A model generated the notes under the pieces. That model made no database searches and was not told where the DNA came from. It saw nothing but the letters and a program-made list of their open reading frames with translations. The translations under genes and the position numbers were made by a program. Shown in pieces: positions 9,862 to 21,923 of a stretch of 64,000 nucleotides of DNA. Numbering within the stretch: position 1 is the stretch's first letter; every line of letters begins with the position of its first letter. This DNA is from Candidatus Thalassarchaeum sp. (GTDB lineage: Archaea > Thermoplasmatota > Poseidoniia > Poseidoniales > Thalassarchaeaceae), in assembly GCA_016777225.1 (NCBI GenBank), contig JADHRW010000002.1, positions 65,284 through 129,283 of the forward strand, written 5' to 3'.

Positions 9862-10707
9862 ATGAACATTGCCATCACCGCGTCGGATACTTTTGTAGCA
9901 CCATTTATTGTAGAAATGCTTGGAAAAGCTGCAGTAGTAATACCAGATGAAGTGATTAAAGATCAATTGAAATTAGATGCAATGCTAACTCCTTGTAATG
10001 CGCTGATACATATTAATTCACGACCAGTAGAATCATCTTTCGAAAGGGATGACAGACAAACAAAGTTGGAGATGATGAACGCTGCCAGACCAATCTTAGA
10101 TGCAGTTGATCGTCATGGAAGTTTACACTTAATAATTATTGGAACTTTAAGAGTTCATCCACAATGGGAACCAGGAGAACCATTCTATGGATTAGACTCA
10201 ACATTAGCCCCTAGAGATACAGCAGCAGAAGGCCAATTATGGATGGAAGAGAATGCTCTAGACAGGGCACATTCTGAGAAACCAGTCAGTATAATTAGAG
10301 CCTCTAATGTTCAAGGAGTTCCTCTTTCTGGACCACCTGGAAATGGACTTCTACACCGCTGGGCTAATGAATGTCAAATGGGTTGGATTAATGTCCCAGG
10401 AGACGGTTCTAATCCTAAAGATTTCATCCATGTTGAAGATTTAGTACAAGTAATAGGGGGCATCATTCAGAATCCACCACTTACTAGAGAAGAAATCGCA
10501 GTTGGCTCAGGGAAGGGAATTTCAATGAATGATTTAGCGAATATATTTCAATCAAAAACAGGTTGTGAAATTGAGTTAAATCAACGAGATGAGGATGAAG
10601 TTTTTGGAGTCGTAGATGCTTGGGTACTTGAAGAAAGGTTAGGATTCAGACCACGAATTAGTCTTGAAGAAATGATCGAAGAGGCATTTGAAGCCGCTCA
10701 AGGATGA
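9862..10707 (+). CDS. NAD-dependent epimerase/dehydratase family protein (extended SDR-like)
   Basis: 281 aa; SIIRASNVQGVPLSGP...DFIHVEDLVQVIGGII...VGSGKGISMNDLANIF pattern. N-terminal glycine motif is weak. Confidence 0.7.
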   Translation: MNIAITASDTFVAPFIVEMLGKAAVVIPDEVIKDQLKLDAMLTPCNALIHINSRPVESSFERDDRQTKLEMMNAARPILDAVDRHGSLHLIIIGTLRVHPQWEPGEPFYGLDSTLAPRDTAAEGQLWMEENALDRAHSEKPVSIIRASNVQGVPLSGPPGNGLLHRWANECQMGWINVPGDGSNPKDFIHVEDLVQVIGGIIQNPPLTREEIAVGSGKGISMNDLANIFQSKTGCEIELNQRDEDEVFGVVDAWVLEERLGFRPRISLEEMIEEAFEAAQG

Positions 10708-12224
10708 TTTACAACTAATCTTTTACGTATACCATTCCAATCTGCTACCGAAACATCTGATTTCATCTCAGAACCGGATAAGATATTACTAGTATCTGAT
10801 TCTTTTTTCATCCTGACTTCAATCTCATGATTATTTGAGGTCACTAGTAAGGTATTGCCACCCTTATATTCATCAGATATCCCAATTCCAAATGTCCTAT
10901 CGATAGAACTTACTCTAAAAGATAATTCTAATATTTCTCCTTTAAACTGTGACAATAACTCACGTTGTTCATTCAAAAATCTTGCTTCAATCATTCGATT
11001 AACTATTTCATCCAAAGAAAAAGAACTTGATTGAGATACAGTATTCTCTAATGACGGTGTAGATGACTCGATAACAGATTTCTCTAGAATCGCTTCTTCA
11101 ACTGCTGCTATTTCTTGGATTTCATCTAATGAATCTTGCTTAGAAATTGGTTCATTGACAGTGACACGTTCGGGGATCTCAACTCTGTCAGGAGGATCAA
11201 CATCATGAGAATCGTGCCAAGCCTGTGACGAGGTTTTTGACACTTTCTCGATGGAAGCTTGTTGAACGTCTTCTTTAGAAATACTGGAAACTACCCCTGC
11301 TGCTGCTCCTGCTATCCCCAAACCAGTTACAAGATTAGCATTATTCGTCGATAATTGAGTTTTGGCAATTGTAACTACTGCATCGGACTTAATTTTCCAT
11401 ATCGCTCTAACCGGAGCTTGTGTAATAAGAGGTAATTGAGAAACTTGTGATTCAAATTTATCATTTATTATACTATAATTTTCATCAATGGCTTCGGTAC
11501 TTGATGGGTCTGCAATCAACTTTTCTAATTCATTAGACCACTTTTCTACAAAGTCTGTCATATCAAACTCTTCTTCTACCAATTTAATCTCATCTGGTTT
11601 AGATTTATCTTGGACTGATTCATCAATTCCCATCTGACTTCCAGAGAGCTCAGATATTGTAATTTTTCCTGCACCTACAAATCGGCGAACACCGAGAGGA
11701 ATATTACCGTCTGCAGGGACTCTAGTCCAGCCACCACCATACCAATCATTAGTGCCATTTTGTTGTCTGTCATCTAAGCTCCAAGAAGGGGCACCGCCAT
11801 CGTTAGCATCATAGAAATATAATCTACAGCCATTTGAATTCATATACCAATCTTTACCATTTATTTTAGTTGATTGAATTGAATAATCACCATTATATTT
11901 CTGAGTGACATGCCCAGAAATATTAAGAGAAGAAGAATTAATAGAAGTTTTATTTTCCATACCTAAAAGTGCCATTAATTCGCTTTGTTCTAGAAAACCA
12001 CTACCATTTGTATCTATTGCAGAGAATATTGGCCCAAGATAAGAACGAGGAGCGCTAGAACCTGTTAACTTGGTTAGACCACTATCGAATTCATCGATAT
12101 TTATTTTGCCATCTCCATCAAAATCAAATTTTGATAACATCGAATTCGCAGTAAATCCTTTACTAATTAATAATTTTTCAAGATTTTTCATCGCTGCTGC
12201 AACTAGTTTATCAGAAATGTTCAT
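10698..12224 (-). CDS. EF-hand domain protein with a Gly/Trp/Tyr-rich middle domain (ORF track begins at 12269; ATG at 12224 preferred)
   Basis: Two EF-hand loops, DFDGDGKINIDEF and DTNGSGFLEQSEL; then YNGDYSIQSTKINGKDWYMNSNGCRLYFYDANDGGAPSWSLDDR. Confidence 0.7.
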   Translation of the reverse strand: MNISDKLVAAAMKNLEKLLISKGFTANSMLSKFDFDGDGKINIDEFDSGLTKLTGSSAPRSYLGPIFSAIDTNGSGFLEQSELMALLGMENKTSINSSSLNISGHVTQKYNGDYSIQSTKINGKDWYMNSNGCRLYFYDANDGGAPSWSLDDRQQNGTNDWYGGGWTRVPADGNIPLGVRRFVGAGKITISELSGSQMGIDESVQDKSKPDEIKLVEEEFDMTDFVEKWSNELEKLIADPSSTEAIDENYSIINDKFESQVSQLPLITQAPVRAIWKIKSDAVVTIAKTQLSTNNANLVTGLGIAGAAAGVVSSISKEDVQQASIEKVSKTSSQAWHDSHDVDPPDRVEIPERVTVNEPISKQDSLDEIQEIAAVEEAILEKSVIESSTPSLENTVSQSSSFSLDEIVNRMIEARFLNEQRELLSQFKGEILELSFRVSSIDRTFGIGISDEYKGGNTLLVTSNNHEIEVRMKKESDTSNILSGSEMKSDVSVADWNGIRKRLVVNHP

Positions 12225-12287
12225 GGTATACCGTAAAAGAACATAGACATGATACTTACGCCTACACAATTACTCATTAAATGAGAA

Positions 12288-17217: not shown

Positions 17218-19809
17218 GTGACAAATATTGAAAATCGTATTTTTTCTTGGCATAGTATACCCCAATCATCTAGAATAATCCTTATCACATCTATGATAGT
17301 TATAATTTTTATAACTCCAAATTTTGCAGAAGGATATTATGAAAGTTCATGGAGTTTAATAGACTCAGATTCTCAGAATAATTACAATGCAGCAATTATA
17401 GATGAAAATGGAGATGCATGGGTCTTTGGAGATGATGGCGAAATTATTTTTGGAGAAAAGATGGGTGAATGGATTCAGTTTGATTCGCCAACAAATGAAG
17501 ATCTTAAAGCAGCATATGCAAATCAGGAGTTAATTGTAGCAGCTGGAAATAATGGTAGCGTAATATACAAGCAATATAGTTCAGAAAATTGGATAGAAAT
17601 AAAAATGGATAATTTAATTGATGCTCATTCAGTTTCTATTAATTCCAATAATGAAATATTTATTGTATCTGATAATGGAGAGATTTGGTGCTTTAAGCAG
17701 CAGAATTGGATTAAAATTGAAAGTTTAGTTTCTGAAGATCTAAATGATATTGTATTTGAGGGCGAAAGAGGATTAATTTCGGGTTCATCGGGATTAATAT
17801 TGGGTTCAGAGGATAATGGAGAAACTTGGGAAATCAGAGAGACCCCAGAAGAGGTATCTGACTCGAATATTATTTCAATCGGTTTTTATGGAATAAATAG
17901 AGGCTATGCAATAACATCAGATGGCCAAATATTGAAATCAACACAAGAAGCATTAACGACAACAGTGGGTTATTATTGGTATCTAAAAGAAATTGAATCA
18001 GAAAATATGAGTACTACCTTGGGTATTAACTTGACATCAATAGAAGTACTTAGCACTACGAAGATATTACTTTCAGGTGAAAATGGTTATATCGCTTTAA
18101 GTAAAGATGGAGGTAATATCGTAGACCCTCAGCTATTACCAATTGAGGGAAATTTTACAATAAATGATATTGCGATGAAAACTGCATTTATAGGAATTAT
18201 TGTAGGTGATAATGGAACTATATTGTATACGGAAAACGGCGGTCAGGATAATGCATTAGGATTCGAAATCATGGATTTAAGTGATTTTAGTGAATTTGTA
18301 GATTTCACTAAAGATAACTTATTAGAAGGATTGAAAGCAACAATGAAAATAGTAATTTTTGGGATATTATTAGGATTCTTCTTAGGGATAGTTCTCGCAA
18401 TGTGCAAGACTGCACCAACGACTTTGAAACAAATGATTGAAGGAGATTTAGAAAGAACATTGATTTTATTCTGGTTAATTATTCCTGTGACAATAATTGG
18501 TTCTAGGATTCATGGAATGGGATTTGGTGTTGTATTATTCTTAGGTATTGGTATTCTAATTTCAATATTAAACTATTACATAAATAAAAATAAAATTGAA
18601 AATGAAGGTTTCTTAGGCATTAGTATATCTAATAATCATAGAACAATGATGATTCGTCTACTTGGTTTAACTTTACTGCTAGGCGTTCCATTTACAGAGG
18701 AATGGGGCATAAAAGGAGGGATTGTTTGTGTATATAGCGCACTTTCGGATTTCTATGCATTCCATCTAGGATCAAATACTTTCAAATTATCTGCACAGGT
18801 AGCATATATCTTTGCGCCAATTGGAAATCCAGATGCATTTTTCAGAATGATATTTGGGATTGGATTGACATATTTGGGAGTATTATTTTTTACATCAAAC
18901 GGTAGTTTTGAAAAGAAAAAAATATCTTATGGAAGACCAATATTAGTTTTATTATTATGGCTAGTGATTTTAACAGAAATTTTAGTTGATTTTGATATAA
19001 CAGGGAAACATTCTTCGACATTTCTTGGAATCTTTGGGTGGAGAGTATTTCTAATTTTTATAGGATTATTATTAACTAAAAGAATTCTTCCAGGGGGGTT
19101 AAGTTCTATAACTAAAGGAACAGATAATAAGATAATAATAGAGCCATGGAAAATTAGACCGTTACAAACAATTGCTACATTATATACTGATTTCTTTAGA
19201 AATACGCCTCTATTAGTTCAATTTATGTTTATCCACTTTGGTCTGCAATTAGGCAAACATATACAAAACATAGGAGTTGATATAACGAGTGATTTATTCA
19301 CTATTTCTTCTTATTTGGGCCCATTAGATAATCTCATTTCACCCATGATTGATTATGTCAAAGAAAGTCTATTTGGTCCTGGAAAAAGATCTTATCTTAG
19401 TGCCATCTTTGCATTGGGATTGAATTCAGCAGCCTATCAATGTGAAACAATTAGAGGAGCGATCGCTGCAATACCTTCTGGACAAATGGAAGCCGGCAGA
19501 AGTATAGGATTAACATATATGGGTACAATGAGACTAATTATCTTACCACAAGCAATTAGGATTTGCATACCTCCGTTAGGGAATGAAATGGTGAATTTAG
19601 TCTTAAACTCTTCTTTAGCAAGTGTAATCGCATATACCGAATTAACACGACAAGGGAAATTAGTAGTCGCAATAACGTTCCAAATTTTCTGGACATGGGG
19701 AATGGTGATGATTGCATATTTCGTTGTAACTTGGTCACTTGCATTATTATTAAGAAGGCTTGAGGAGAAAACAAGGATCCCAGGATTAGGTATTTCAGGA
19801 GGGAATTGA
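17218..19809 (+). CDS. Fusion protein: YCF48/BNR-like beta-propeller + polar amino-acid-type ABC permease with large internal TM insertion
   Basis: Seven G-x-x/N-G-x-I ... W repeats (aa about 70-345); permease start NLLEGLKATMKIVIFGILLGFFLGIVLAMCKTA; permease end LYTDFFRNTPLLVQFMFIHFGLQLG ... GAIAAIPSGQMEAGRSIGLTYMGTMRLIILPQAIRICIPPLGNEMVNLVLNSSLASVI (EAA-type loop). Confidence 0.85.
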   Translation: MTNIENRIFSWHSIPQSSRIILITSMIVIIFITPNFAEGYYESSWSLIDSDSQNNYNAAIIDENGDAWVFGDDGEIIFGEKMGEWIQFDSPTNEDLKAAYANQELIVAAGNNGSVIYKQYSSENWIEIKMDNLIDAHSVSINSNNEIFIVSDNGEIWCFKQQNWIKIESLVSEDLNDIVFEGERGLISGSSGLILGSEDNGETWEIRETPEEVSDSNIISIGFYGINRGYAITSDGQILKSTQEALTTTVGYYWYLKEIESENMSTTLGINLTSIEVLSTTKILLSGENGYIALSKDGGNIVDPQLLPIEGNFTINDIAMKTAFIGIIVGDNGTILYTENGGQDNALGFEIMDLSDFSEFVDFTKDNLLEGLKATMKIVIFGILLGFFLGIVLAMCKTAPTTLKQMIEGDLERTLILFWLIIPVTIIGSRIHGMGFGVVLFLGIGILISILNYYINKNKIENEGFLGISISNNHRTMMIRLLGLTLLLGVPFTEEWGIKGGIVCVYSALSDFYAFHLGSNTFKLSAQVAYIFAPIGNPDAFFRMIFGIGLTYLGVLFFTSNGSFEKKKISYGRPILVLLLWLVILTEILVDFDITGKHSSTFLGIFGWRVFLIFIGLLLTKRILPGGLSSITKGTDNKIIIEPWKIRPLQTIATLYTDFFRNTPLLVQFMFIHFGLQLGKHIQNIGVDITSDLFTISSYLGPLDNLISPMIDYVKESLFGPGKRSYLSAIFALGLNSAAYQCETIRGAIAAIPSGQMEAGRSIGLTYMGTMRLIILPQAIRICIPPLGNEMVNLVLNSSLASVIAYTELTRQGKLVVAITFQIFWTWGMVMIAYFVVTWSLALLLRRLEEKTRIPGLGISGGN

Positions 19810-20559
19810 ATGGATGAAATCGTATTAGATATTGAAAATCTAGAGAAAACTTATCCAGGAGGAGTACATGCAGTTAAGGGAATTTCATTCGATGTTAAGA
19901 AAGGAGAATCTATAGCGATTATTGGGTCCTCAGGAAGTGGAAAGTCAACGGTATTAAGGTGCATTAATAGACTCATAGAACCAACGAAAGGAAATATTAA
20001 ACTAAATAACCAAATCATAAATAATCCATTAGCAGATGTTAATGAAATACGTTCAAAAATTGGCATGGTTTTTCAATCATTTGAACTATTTTCTCACCTA
20101 AAGGTTTTAGATAATATCACTTTAGGATTGAGGCATGTTAGGGGAATGAGTAAAGATGAAGCAGAGGAGAGTGCCCTAGAAGTTCTAGCTAGAGTAGATA
20201 TGTTAGATAGAATTGATGCATTCCCAGGAAACCTTTCAGGGGGGCAGAAACAGAGAGTTGCAATCGCAAGGGCATTAGCAATGCATCCTGAAGTAATATT
20301 ATTTGATGAGCCAACTAGTGCTTTAGATCCTGAGTTAATTGGGTCGGTTTTACAAACAATCAGAAGTTTAGCAGATGAAGGAATGACAATGGTAATTGTG
20401 ACTCATGAAATAAATTTTGCTAGAGATGTAGCTGATAGAATAATATATATGGATAAGGGACTTATTGCGGAACAAGGCCCTTCGAGTATTATAGAAAATC
20501 CTAATTCAGATAGATTGAAGGAGTTTTTATCTTCAATGGATGAAGAAAATGATAATTAA
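19810..20559 (+). CDS. Polar amino acid ABC transporter ATP-binding protein (GlnQ/HisP-like)
   Basis: Walker A GSSGSGKST, Q-loop VFQSFELFSHL, signature LSGGQKQRVAIARALAMHPEVILFDEPTSALDPE. Confidence 0.95.
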   Translation: MDEIVLDIENLEKTYPGGVHAVKGISFDVKKGESIAIIGSSGSGKSTVLRCINRLIEPTKGNIKLNNQIINNPLADVNEIRSKIGMVFQSFELFSHLKVLDNITLGLRHVRGMSKDEAEESALEVLARVDMLDRIDAFPGNLSGGQKQRVAIARALAMHPEVILFDEPTSALDPELIGSVLQTIRSLADEGMTMVIVTHEINFARDVADRIIYMDKGLIAEQGPSSIIENPNSDRLKEFLSSMDEENDN

Positions 20560-21923
20560 ATTAATCCTTGAGCAGTCATCGCTTCAGCGACTTTAAGGAA
20601 ACCAGCAATATTTGCTCCGGCTACGTAGTTACCAGGCATTCCATATTTTTCAGCAGTTTCAGATGCATTCTTATGGATATCAACCATTATCTGATCAAGC
20701 TTGGAATCTACTTCCTCACGAGTCCAATTATATCTAAGTGAATTTTGAGACATTTCTAAACCAGAGGTTGCAACTCCACCTGCATTACTTGCTTTACCAG
20801 GAGCAAACATTACTCCATTACTTTGGAAAACTTCAACAGCCTCGGGAGTACAAGGCATATTAGCGCCTTCTGCAACAGCCATAACTTGGTTACTAACTAG
20901 CATTTTAGCTTCTTCACCATTTATCTCATTCTGTGTTGCGCAAGGAAGTGCTACATCGACATTAATCCCCCAAAGACCATTGGAAGAGGGTTCTGGAGCA
21001 GATTTAGTAAATGTAGCGCTAGAGAATTTCTCAACATATTCTGAAATCCTTCCTCGACGATTATTTTTTAGATCCATTATCCAGGAAAGTTTCTCTCGGT
21101 CAATACCATCTGAATCATGTATAAAACCACTGGAATCAGACATAGTAACAGGTTTACCACCTAGGTCAAGGACTTTTTCACAAGCAAATTGTGCTACATT
21201 TCCTGAACCTGAAATAGACACTGATGCGCCTTCGAAAGATTTGCCTTTTGTAGCAAGCATCTCTCGAGCAAAATAAACTAAGCCATATCCAGTTGCTTCA
21301 GGTCTGATTAAAGAACCCCCATAAGAACGACCTTTTCCTGTAAGAACTCCAGTAAACTCATTTGCTAGTTTCTTATACATACCAAATAAATATCCTATTT
21401 CTCTACCGCCAACACCAATATCTCCTGCTGGAACATCGAGATTTGCGCCAATATGTCGCCATAGTTCCATCATGAATGACTGACAAAAGCGCATTACTTC
21501 AGAATCTGTTTTACCTTTAGGATTAAAGTCAGAACCACCTTTTCCACCACCCATTGGTAAACCAGTTAAACTATTCTTGAAAACTTGCTCAAATGCCAGA
21601 AACTTGAGAATAGATTGATTGACAGATGGATGGAAACGTAGACCACCTTTGTAAGGTCCTATCGCACTATTCATTTGAATTCTAAAACCTCTGTTTACAT
21701 GTAACTTTCCACTATCATCAAACCAAGGAACACGGAACTGAATAATACGCTCTGCCTCAACCATTGATTCTACAACTGGTAAATACTCAGGATGAGCCTG
21801 AATTACTGGCACTAAACTCTCCAACACCTCTTCCACTGCTTGATGGAATTCAGGCTGATTCGGATCTCTTGTAATTACACTTTCATATACTTTTTTCATT
21901 GTATTATCCATGGGATTCACCAA
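20556..21923 (-). CDS. gdhA: Glutamate dehydrogenase (NADP-type, hexameric)
   Basis: GPYKGGLRFHPSVNQSILKFLAFEQVFKNSLTGLPMGGGKGGSDFNPKGKTDSEVMRFCQSFM...DVPAGDIGVGGREIGYLFG. Confidence 0.97.
   Translation of the reverse strand: MVNPMDNTMKKVYESVITRDPNQPEFHQAVEEVLESLVPVIQAHPEYLPVVESMVEAERIIQFRVPWFDDSGKLHVNRGFRIQMNSAIGPYKGGLRFHPSVNQSILKFLAFEQVFKNSLTGLPMGGGKGGSDFNPKGKTDSEVMRFCQSFMMELWRHIGANLDVPAGDIGVGGREIGYLFGMYKKLANEFTGVLTGKGRSYGGSLIRPEATGYGLVYFAREMLATKGKSFEGASVSISGSGNVAQFACEKVLDLGGKPVTMSDSSGFIHDSDGIDREKLSWIMDLKNNRRGRISEYVEKFSSATFTKSAPEPSSNGLWGINVDVALPCATQNEINGEEAKMLVSNQVMAVAEGANMPCTPEAVEVFQSNGVMFAPGKASNAGGVATSGLEMSQNSLRYNWTREEVDSKLDQIMVDIHKNASETAEKYGMPGNYVAGANIAGFLKVAEAMTAQGLI

Follow-up and report, generated by a model that had tools for sequence, protein, structure and literature searches.

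A YCF48-like beta-propeller fused to a GlnP-type ABC permease in Marine Group IIb archaea, and a putative circularly permuted receptor acting in trans

The window analysed here is a stretch of 64,000 nucleotides from Candidatus Thalassarchaeum sp. It contains a gene in which a beta-propeller is joined to an ABC permease, with the gene for the ATPase directly behind it. The features of this locus, numbered from the first letter of the window, are as follows.

17218-19809, plus strand: propeller-permease fusion gene, GTG start, an uninterrupted ORF of 863 aa
17263-17331, plus strand: N-terminal signal anchor of one TM helix, about aa 16-38 (hydropathy peak at aa 20-38; AF2 helix at aa 16-31)
17344-18252, plus strand: seven-bladed YCF48-like beta-propeller, aa 43-345 (Pfam PSII_BNR, AF2, Foldseek)
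18280-18417, plus strand: elbow and TM1 of the GlnP-type permease, aa 355-400 (aligned with ArtQ residues 4-45, weak alone and backed by collinearity)
18418-19137, plus strand: variable insertion between TM1 and TM2, aa 401-640, with several extra TM helices (alignment to ArtQ)
19138-19806, plus strand: permease core with the EAA loop (GQMEAGRSIGLTYMGTMRLIILPQ), aa 641-863 (BPD_transp_1; ArtQ alignment)
19810-20559, plus strand: GlnQ-type ATPase, 249 aa (Walker A GSSGSGKST; signature LSGGQKQRVA)
20556-21923, minus strand: convergent glutamate dehydrogenase, a context gene only (gene cluster in 23 of the loci)

The ATPase frame starts at 19810, the base right after the end of the fusion frame at 19809, and the earlier note was thus correct in reading propeller and permease as one frame followed immediately by the ATPase. 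Upstream of the fusion lie sufS/sufE/MIP18-like genes, and downstream the convergent glutamate dehydrogenase. No substrate-binding protein (SBP) was seen among the flanking genes, and the claim that the importer lacks an adjacent one is borne out for the source genome.

The sequence is derived from a MAG that is 87% complete, which could favor an assembly or frameshift artefact, the possibility that the earlier note had named as fatal to its reading. That explanation was rejected, and we give it practically no weight: in-frame, unbroken relatives occur in many independent genomes, including named assemblies, and those at 33 other loci exclude an assembly join or frameshift. Within the class Poseidoniia (Marine Group II/III archaea) the search covered 340 genomes and detected the fusion in 91, of which 86 belong to the family of the source genome (6 of its 11 genera) and 5 to a second family, here called MGIII on the basis of the label of L140 (identical with locus L203, from genome G168). 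Fusion and ATPase occur together in all 34 loci examined, each from a different genome, and a split form was never seen among them. The conservation in related genomes for which the earlier note had called is thus present, as is the unusual architecture that it proposed, with the propeller covalently attached to the permease. It had also foreseen that homologs might turn out to be split, with a separate SBP beside the permease; some relatives do have an SBP next door, but no split fusion was seen.

All named matches with a propeller are from Marine Group II or III, for example Ca. Thalassarchaeaceae and Ca. Thalassarchaeum. Outside Poseidoniia no fusion was found in what was searched, the best matches in the sample from the rest of the phylum covering the permease core only. 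Three of these (L204, L207 and L208) sit in canonical Thermoplasmatota operons, the nearest relatives in the phylum sample, where an SBP3 accompanies a permease of the same class and, in L204 and L207, a GlnQ-type ATPase. They differ from the fusion in having an SBP of ordinary domain order next door and a permease of 221-263 aa, with neither propeller nor insertion. An apparent TGA inside the gene in g6 genomes was considered as recoding and set aside, as it is most likely the result of an alignment overrunning an earlier natural C-terminal stop; the L061 protein of this genus ends in ...IPGLGIL.

The identity of the N-terminal domain is clear. Residues 1-355 match Pfam PSII_BNR (YCF48) with E=6e-14 (52.4 bits against a cut-off of 27), profile searches detect the YCF48 family with E-values down to 3e-22, and seven G-x-x-G-type motifs are present. 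AlphaFold, run on 21 sequences, predicts seven four-stranded blades (strands within aa 56-340, the ring being closed by the N-terminal aa 44-48) with pLDDT of about 65-91 for aa 41-340. In a Foldseek comparison of this model with the PDB, YCF48 structures take the first 12 places, with TM-scores of 0.69-0.75 of the target. The seven-bladed propeller that the earlier note had recognized from its motifs, behind a signal/TM segment, is therefore also what structure prediction gives. Within the fusion there is no Pfam match to SBP_bac_3, and the structure comparison likewise shows a propeller.

The closest well-studied relative, sharing both fold and sequence family, is the photosystem II assembly factor Ycf48/HCF136 (PDB 2XBG, 5OJ3-5OJR, 8AM5); it is extracytoplasmic, as the propeller presumably is too. 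To our knowledge there is no photosystem in these archaea. Ycf48 docks on the lumenal (outer) face of a membrane protein, and a conserved patch of six Arg binds D1 (PMC10403576). This patch is absent from aa 43-345 of the fusion, which hold only three Arg (R190, R207 and R228) and are strongly acidic (49 D+E vs. 14 K+R), so that the domain is a YCF48 homologue and not a Ycf48. Ycf48/HCF136 is moreover a free-standing lumenal factor, whereas the propeller is joined to an ABC permease in 34 of 34 loci.

This kinship raises the possibility that the propeller is an intramolecular module for assembly or stability, as in Ycf48, with no role in substrate delivery and with the receptor supplied in trans. 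Besides the unambiguous fold and the docking of Ycf48 on the outside of a membrane protein, the rate of change fits: mean conservation is 0.55 for the propeller vs. 0.77 for the permease core, as would be expected of a scaffold. Within the genus, purifying selection acts on the propeller (dN/dS of 0.08-0.19), but it is weaker there than on the core. Against such a role stand the missing Arg patch and the permanent linkage: a chaperone has no need of a covalent bond to its client, and still no split fusion was seen. We consider the assembly module unlikely, though it deserves to be kept in mind.

The permease belongs to a familiar class but has been enlarged. BPD_transp_1 matches aa 647-848 (Pfam, E=3.2e-15), and the NCBIfam models for GlnP and cystine permeases give 1e-33 to 1e-34, yet stay under their equivalog cut-offs. 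The core aligns with residues 47-215 of ArtQ (4yms_D, E=1.5e-29); it is the most conserved part of the fusion, being 91-95% identical within the genus with dN/dS of about 0.02. At ArtQ residues 45/47, between TM1 and TM2, some 240 extra amino acids with several TM helices are inserted. The same place holds a short loop in the MGIII relatives and several TM helices in the source genus; the insertion has a dN/dS of 0.17-0.25, and its conservation is roughly as low as that of the N-terminal anchor. For the TM region AF2 gives a poor model, with most pLDDT values under 60, on which the inserted helices cannot be placed. The HisM/GlnP-type permease with an EAA loop described in the earlier note thus holds as to class, but it is not a plain GlnP.

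The ATPase is nearest to the GlnQ model (E=3.7e-87). It could be imagined that a degenerate transporter has here become the base of a sensor or of a device for surface attachment; the insertion of additional TM helices is unusual, and propellers bind many kinds of ligand. However, the EAA loop, Walker A and signature motifs are all intact, the permease core is the best conserved part, and the ATPase is always present, which makes a non-transporting role very improbable.

An EAA permease with a neighbouring GlnQ-type ATPase is what defines, in part, the PAAT importers (type I, TC 3.A.1.3), and both are present. The SBP3 receptor that should lie beside the permease or be fused to it is missing in the source genome and present in the MGIII relatives. 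The substrate would presumably be an amino acid. Anything finer than "L-amino acid" was dropped, the equivalents of GlnBP Lys115 and His156 not being kept in the alignment.

Two known transporters invite comparison. GlnPQ of Lactococcus lactis has a homologous GlnP-type permease and GlnQ-type ATPase and likewise carries its extracytoplasmic part at the permease N-terminus, being a PAAT importer with two substrate-binding domains (SBDs) joined N-terminally to the permease (PMC8025302). In our case, by contrast, the fused domain is a beta-propeller rather than an SBD, the permease contains the additional TM helices, and the putative SBP is a separate protein of permuted domain order, carried here by the receptor of another transporter. 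Art(QN)2 (PDB 4YMS-4YMW) aligns well over the core and weakly over TM1 (ArtQ 4-45); it has neither a fused extracytoplasmic domain nor the TM insertion. A single permease gene with one ATPase gene implies a homodimer, as in Art(QN)2.

The MGIII loci are informative as to the receptor. In 5 of 5 fusion loci of this group a divergent SBP3-family gene, whose product has a C-terminal hydrophobic segment, lies beside the fusion. By sequence alignment this protein is circularly permuted, residues 29-141 corresponding to AncQR 116-232 and residues 175-287 to AncQR 9-115; an AlphaFold model (5 rows) reached a pLDDT of only 45.7 and was not used, so the permutation rests on the AncQR alignment. The motifs YPPF, T-K-T-x-x-R and GDLP are kept (the L200 receptor has TKTEQR); the aromatic residue of the first, the Arg of the second and the Asp of the third are presumably the ligand-holding positions, going by HisJ/LAOBP.

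In MGIIb, 17 genomes have a full-length copy of the adjacent SBP, always abutting the fusion, and all three binding motifs are lost in the eight copies examined (8/8). No full-length adjacent copy was found in the source genome or in the remaining MGIIb fusion genomes. The motif-less proteins may perhaps serve as a structural partner of the propeller. Two Cys are invariant in the MGIIb adjacent SBP-like proteins (L062:5689-6666 and relatives). The MGIII genome G165 (L209:6644-11341) has the flanking genes known from L140, but between them it lacks the fusion, the ATPase and the 5' portion of the permuted SBP gene, as if these had been deleted together. The distribution suggests that the adjacent receptor went from intact to degenerate to lost, the direction of change being read from that distribution.

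A receptor elsewhere in the genome had been suggested as something to look for, and profile searches of the source genome yielded two SBP3 proteins. The first, of 440 aa, is the SBP of an Aap-like operon (L114, G000:C10), which is complete with two permeases and an ATPase. These permeases (L114:7872-11698), of 505 and 770 aa, are bigger than typical bacterial ones. The second is part of a LIV-receptor lipoprotein (L113:9250-12375, G000:C15), encoded on another contig than the fusion and consisting of a lipobox, an SBP3 domain and two LIVBP domains, in that order. Such SBP3-LIVBP multi-receptor fusions occur across most genera with the propeller permease. The LIV permease next to it (L113:12480-16343) has 1287 aa and three BPD_transp_2 stretches, so that a single polypeptide combines LivH-like and LivM-like parts.

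The LIV-tethered SBP3 domain is also permuted, at another point than the MGIII receptor (profile order 38-131, then 1-39), and keeps all three motifs. It is 50% identical to the MGIII receptor vs. 27-28% to other SBP3s of Thermoplasmatota. The presence of this intact permuted SBP3 on another contig argues for a PAAT-like working with the receptor apparently supplied in trans.

Among the 340 genomes, 73 have both the fusion and an intact permuted SBP3, 18 only the fusion and 8 only the SBP3; most of the 18 are incomplete MAGs. By genus, intact permuted SBP3 is found in 8 of 8 with the fusion vs. 2 of 17 without it (Fisher 4e-5, a value inflated by shared ancestry). LIV receptors without the SBP3 domain occur in three MGIII genomes (near-full match), in fusion-less g3 genomes and in G127, G135 and G145 of g11, which likewise lack the fusion. 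In G029 and G104 (genera g4 and g9) the SBP3-LIV receptor is present but no fusion was detected; in both it lies on a contig below 8.5 kb, so that a binning error is possible, though unproven. The association is consistent with the LIV-tethered SBP3 serving the fusion permease, with shared ancestry as a confounding factor.

The first SBP3 protein offers another candidate: the permease may use the SBP of the Aap-like system, the LIV-tethered domain being unrelated. The operon is complete in the source genome, and SBPs common to several permeases are known for PAAT systems. However, of 11 g3 genomes with neither fusion nor SBP3 domain, 10 do have Aap permeases, so that occurrence of the domain is not just a matter of having Aap; in MGIII the fusion comes with an SBP of its own; and G168, an incomplete MAG with fusion and SBP3, shows no clear Aap permease. 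We think it improbable that the Aap SBP is the receptor.

Among possible roles of the propeller the earlier note had listed first that of a covalently attached receptor, and SBP-independent import can be considered at least where no adjacent SBP is found. The propeller holds the position of the fused SBDs of GlnPQ and is kept by selection, and in MGIIb the adjacent SBP loses its motifs and is mostly absent. But in MGIII the propeller coexists with an intact adjacent SBP, an intact homologue of that SBP is retained elsewhere in the source genome and co-distributed with the fusion, and the conserved propeller residues are mainly the Gly, Trp and Asp of the fold, with few candidates for ligand binding (R207, R228, E260 and K282). 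The claim is thus disfavored and, in our estimate, rather improbable; nearly the same can be said of its stronger form, in which the propeller took over capture in those MGIIb without an adjacent SBP, giving an importer without any receptor of periplasmic-binding fold. A docking platform, also considered in the earlier note, or some other extracellular module appears to fit better.

The reading that we prefer, with about even confidence, is a type I ABC importer for polar amino acids, of the GlnPQ/ArtQN class, in a Marine Group IIb archaeon (Ca. Thalassarchaeaceae), with the propeller on the permease as a docking or stabilizing platform and a permuted SBP3 receptor in trans. The transporter, if assembled like Art(QN)2, would consist of two fusion chains and two ATPases. 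The extracytoplasmic propeller would sit at the permease N-terminus, where GlnPQ bears its binding domains. The permease class has N-out topology; with one anchor helix before the propeller, this would put the propeller outside, directly on the permease elbow. Outside placement, taken with the way in which Ycf48 docks on a membrane protein from its outer side, favors a platform, and most likely the propeller caps the outer permease face for a trans-acting receptor. Substrate would be captured by the circularly permuted SBP3-family protein, probably encoded ancestrally in divergent orientation beside the fusion and, in the source lineage, carried on the LIV-receptor lipoprotein. The P2 domain of MalF in the maltose importer, an extracytoplasmic permease domain touching the binding protein, may work in a similar way; it is of another fold and family and placed in a loop rather than at the N-terminus, and is offered as a functional analogy only.

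A type I ABC importer is usually taken to consist of two permease subunits, two ATPase subunits and a receptor of periplasmic-binding fold. Many genera of one archaeal class here bear a different extracytoplasmic module on the permease, with apparent receptor stages ranging from adjacent and intact, through adjacent with motifs lost, to present only on the receptor of another transporter. They offer a natural experiment on the role of a permease-attached domain and on possible sharing of a receptor between two transporter classes. Judging by a partial literature search, a beta-propeller on such an importer has not been seen before; that search found no report of propeller-ABC fusions or of permuted periplasmic binding proteins, and novelty is not proven. 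The MGII metabolism papers discuss amino-acid SBPs and report high transcription of livK and aapJ, and a word search of them gave no mention of a propeller (PMC6336850, PMC9723583). If the Thalassarchaeaceae livK (PMC9723583) is the SBP3-carrying lipoprotein, annotation as "branched-chain" only may misread amino-acid uptake in abundant ocean archaea.

Two neighbours of the fusion in the window may be mentioned. The minus strand at 10698-12269 encodes a protein with EF-hand-like DxDGDG motifs that is conserved near the fusion in the source genus, and the convergent glutamate dehydrogenase is a possible hint of a glutamate/glutamine link.
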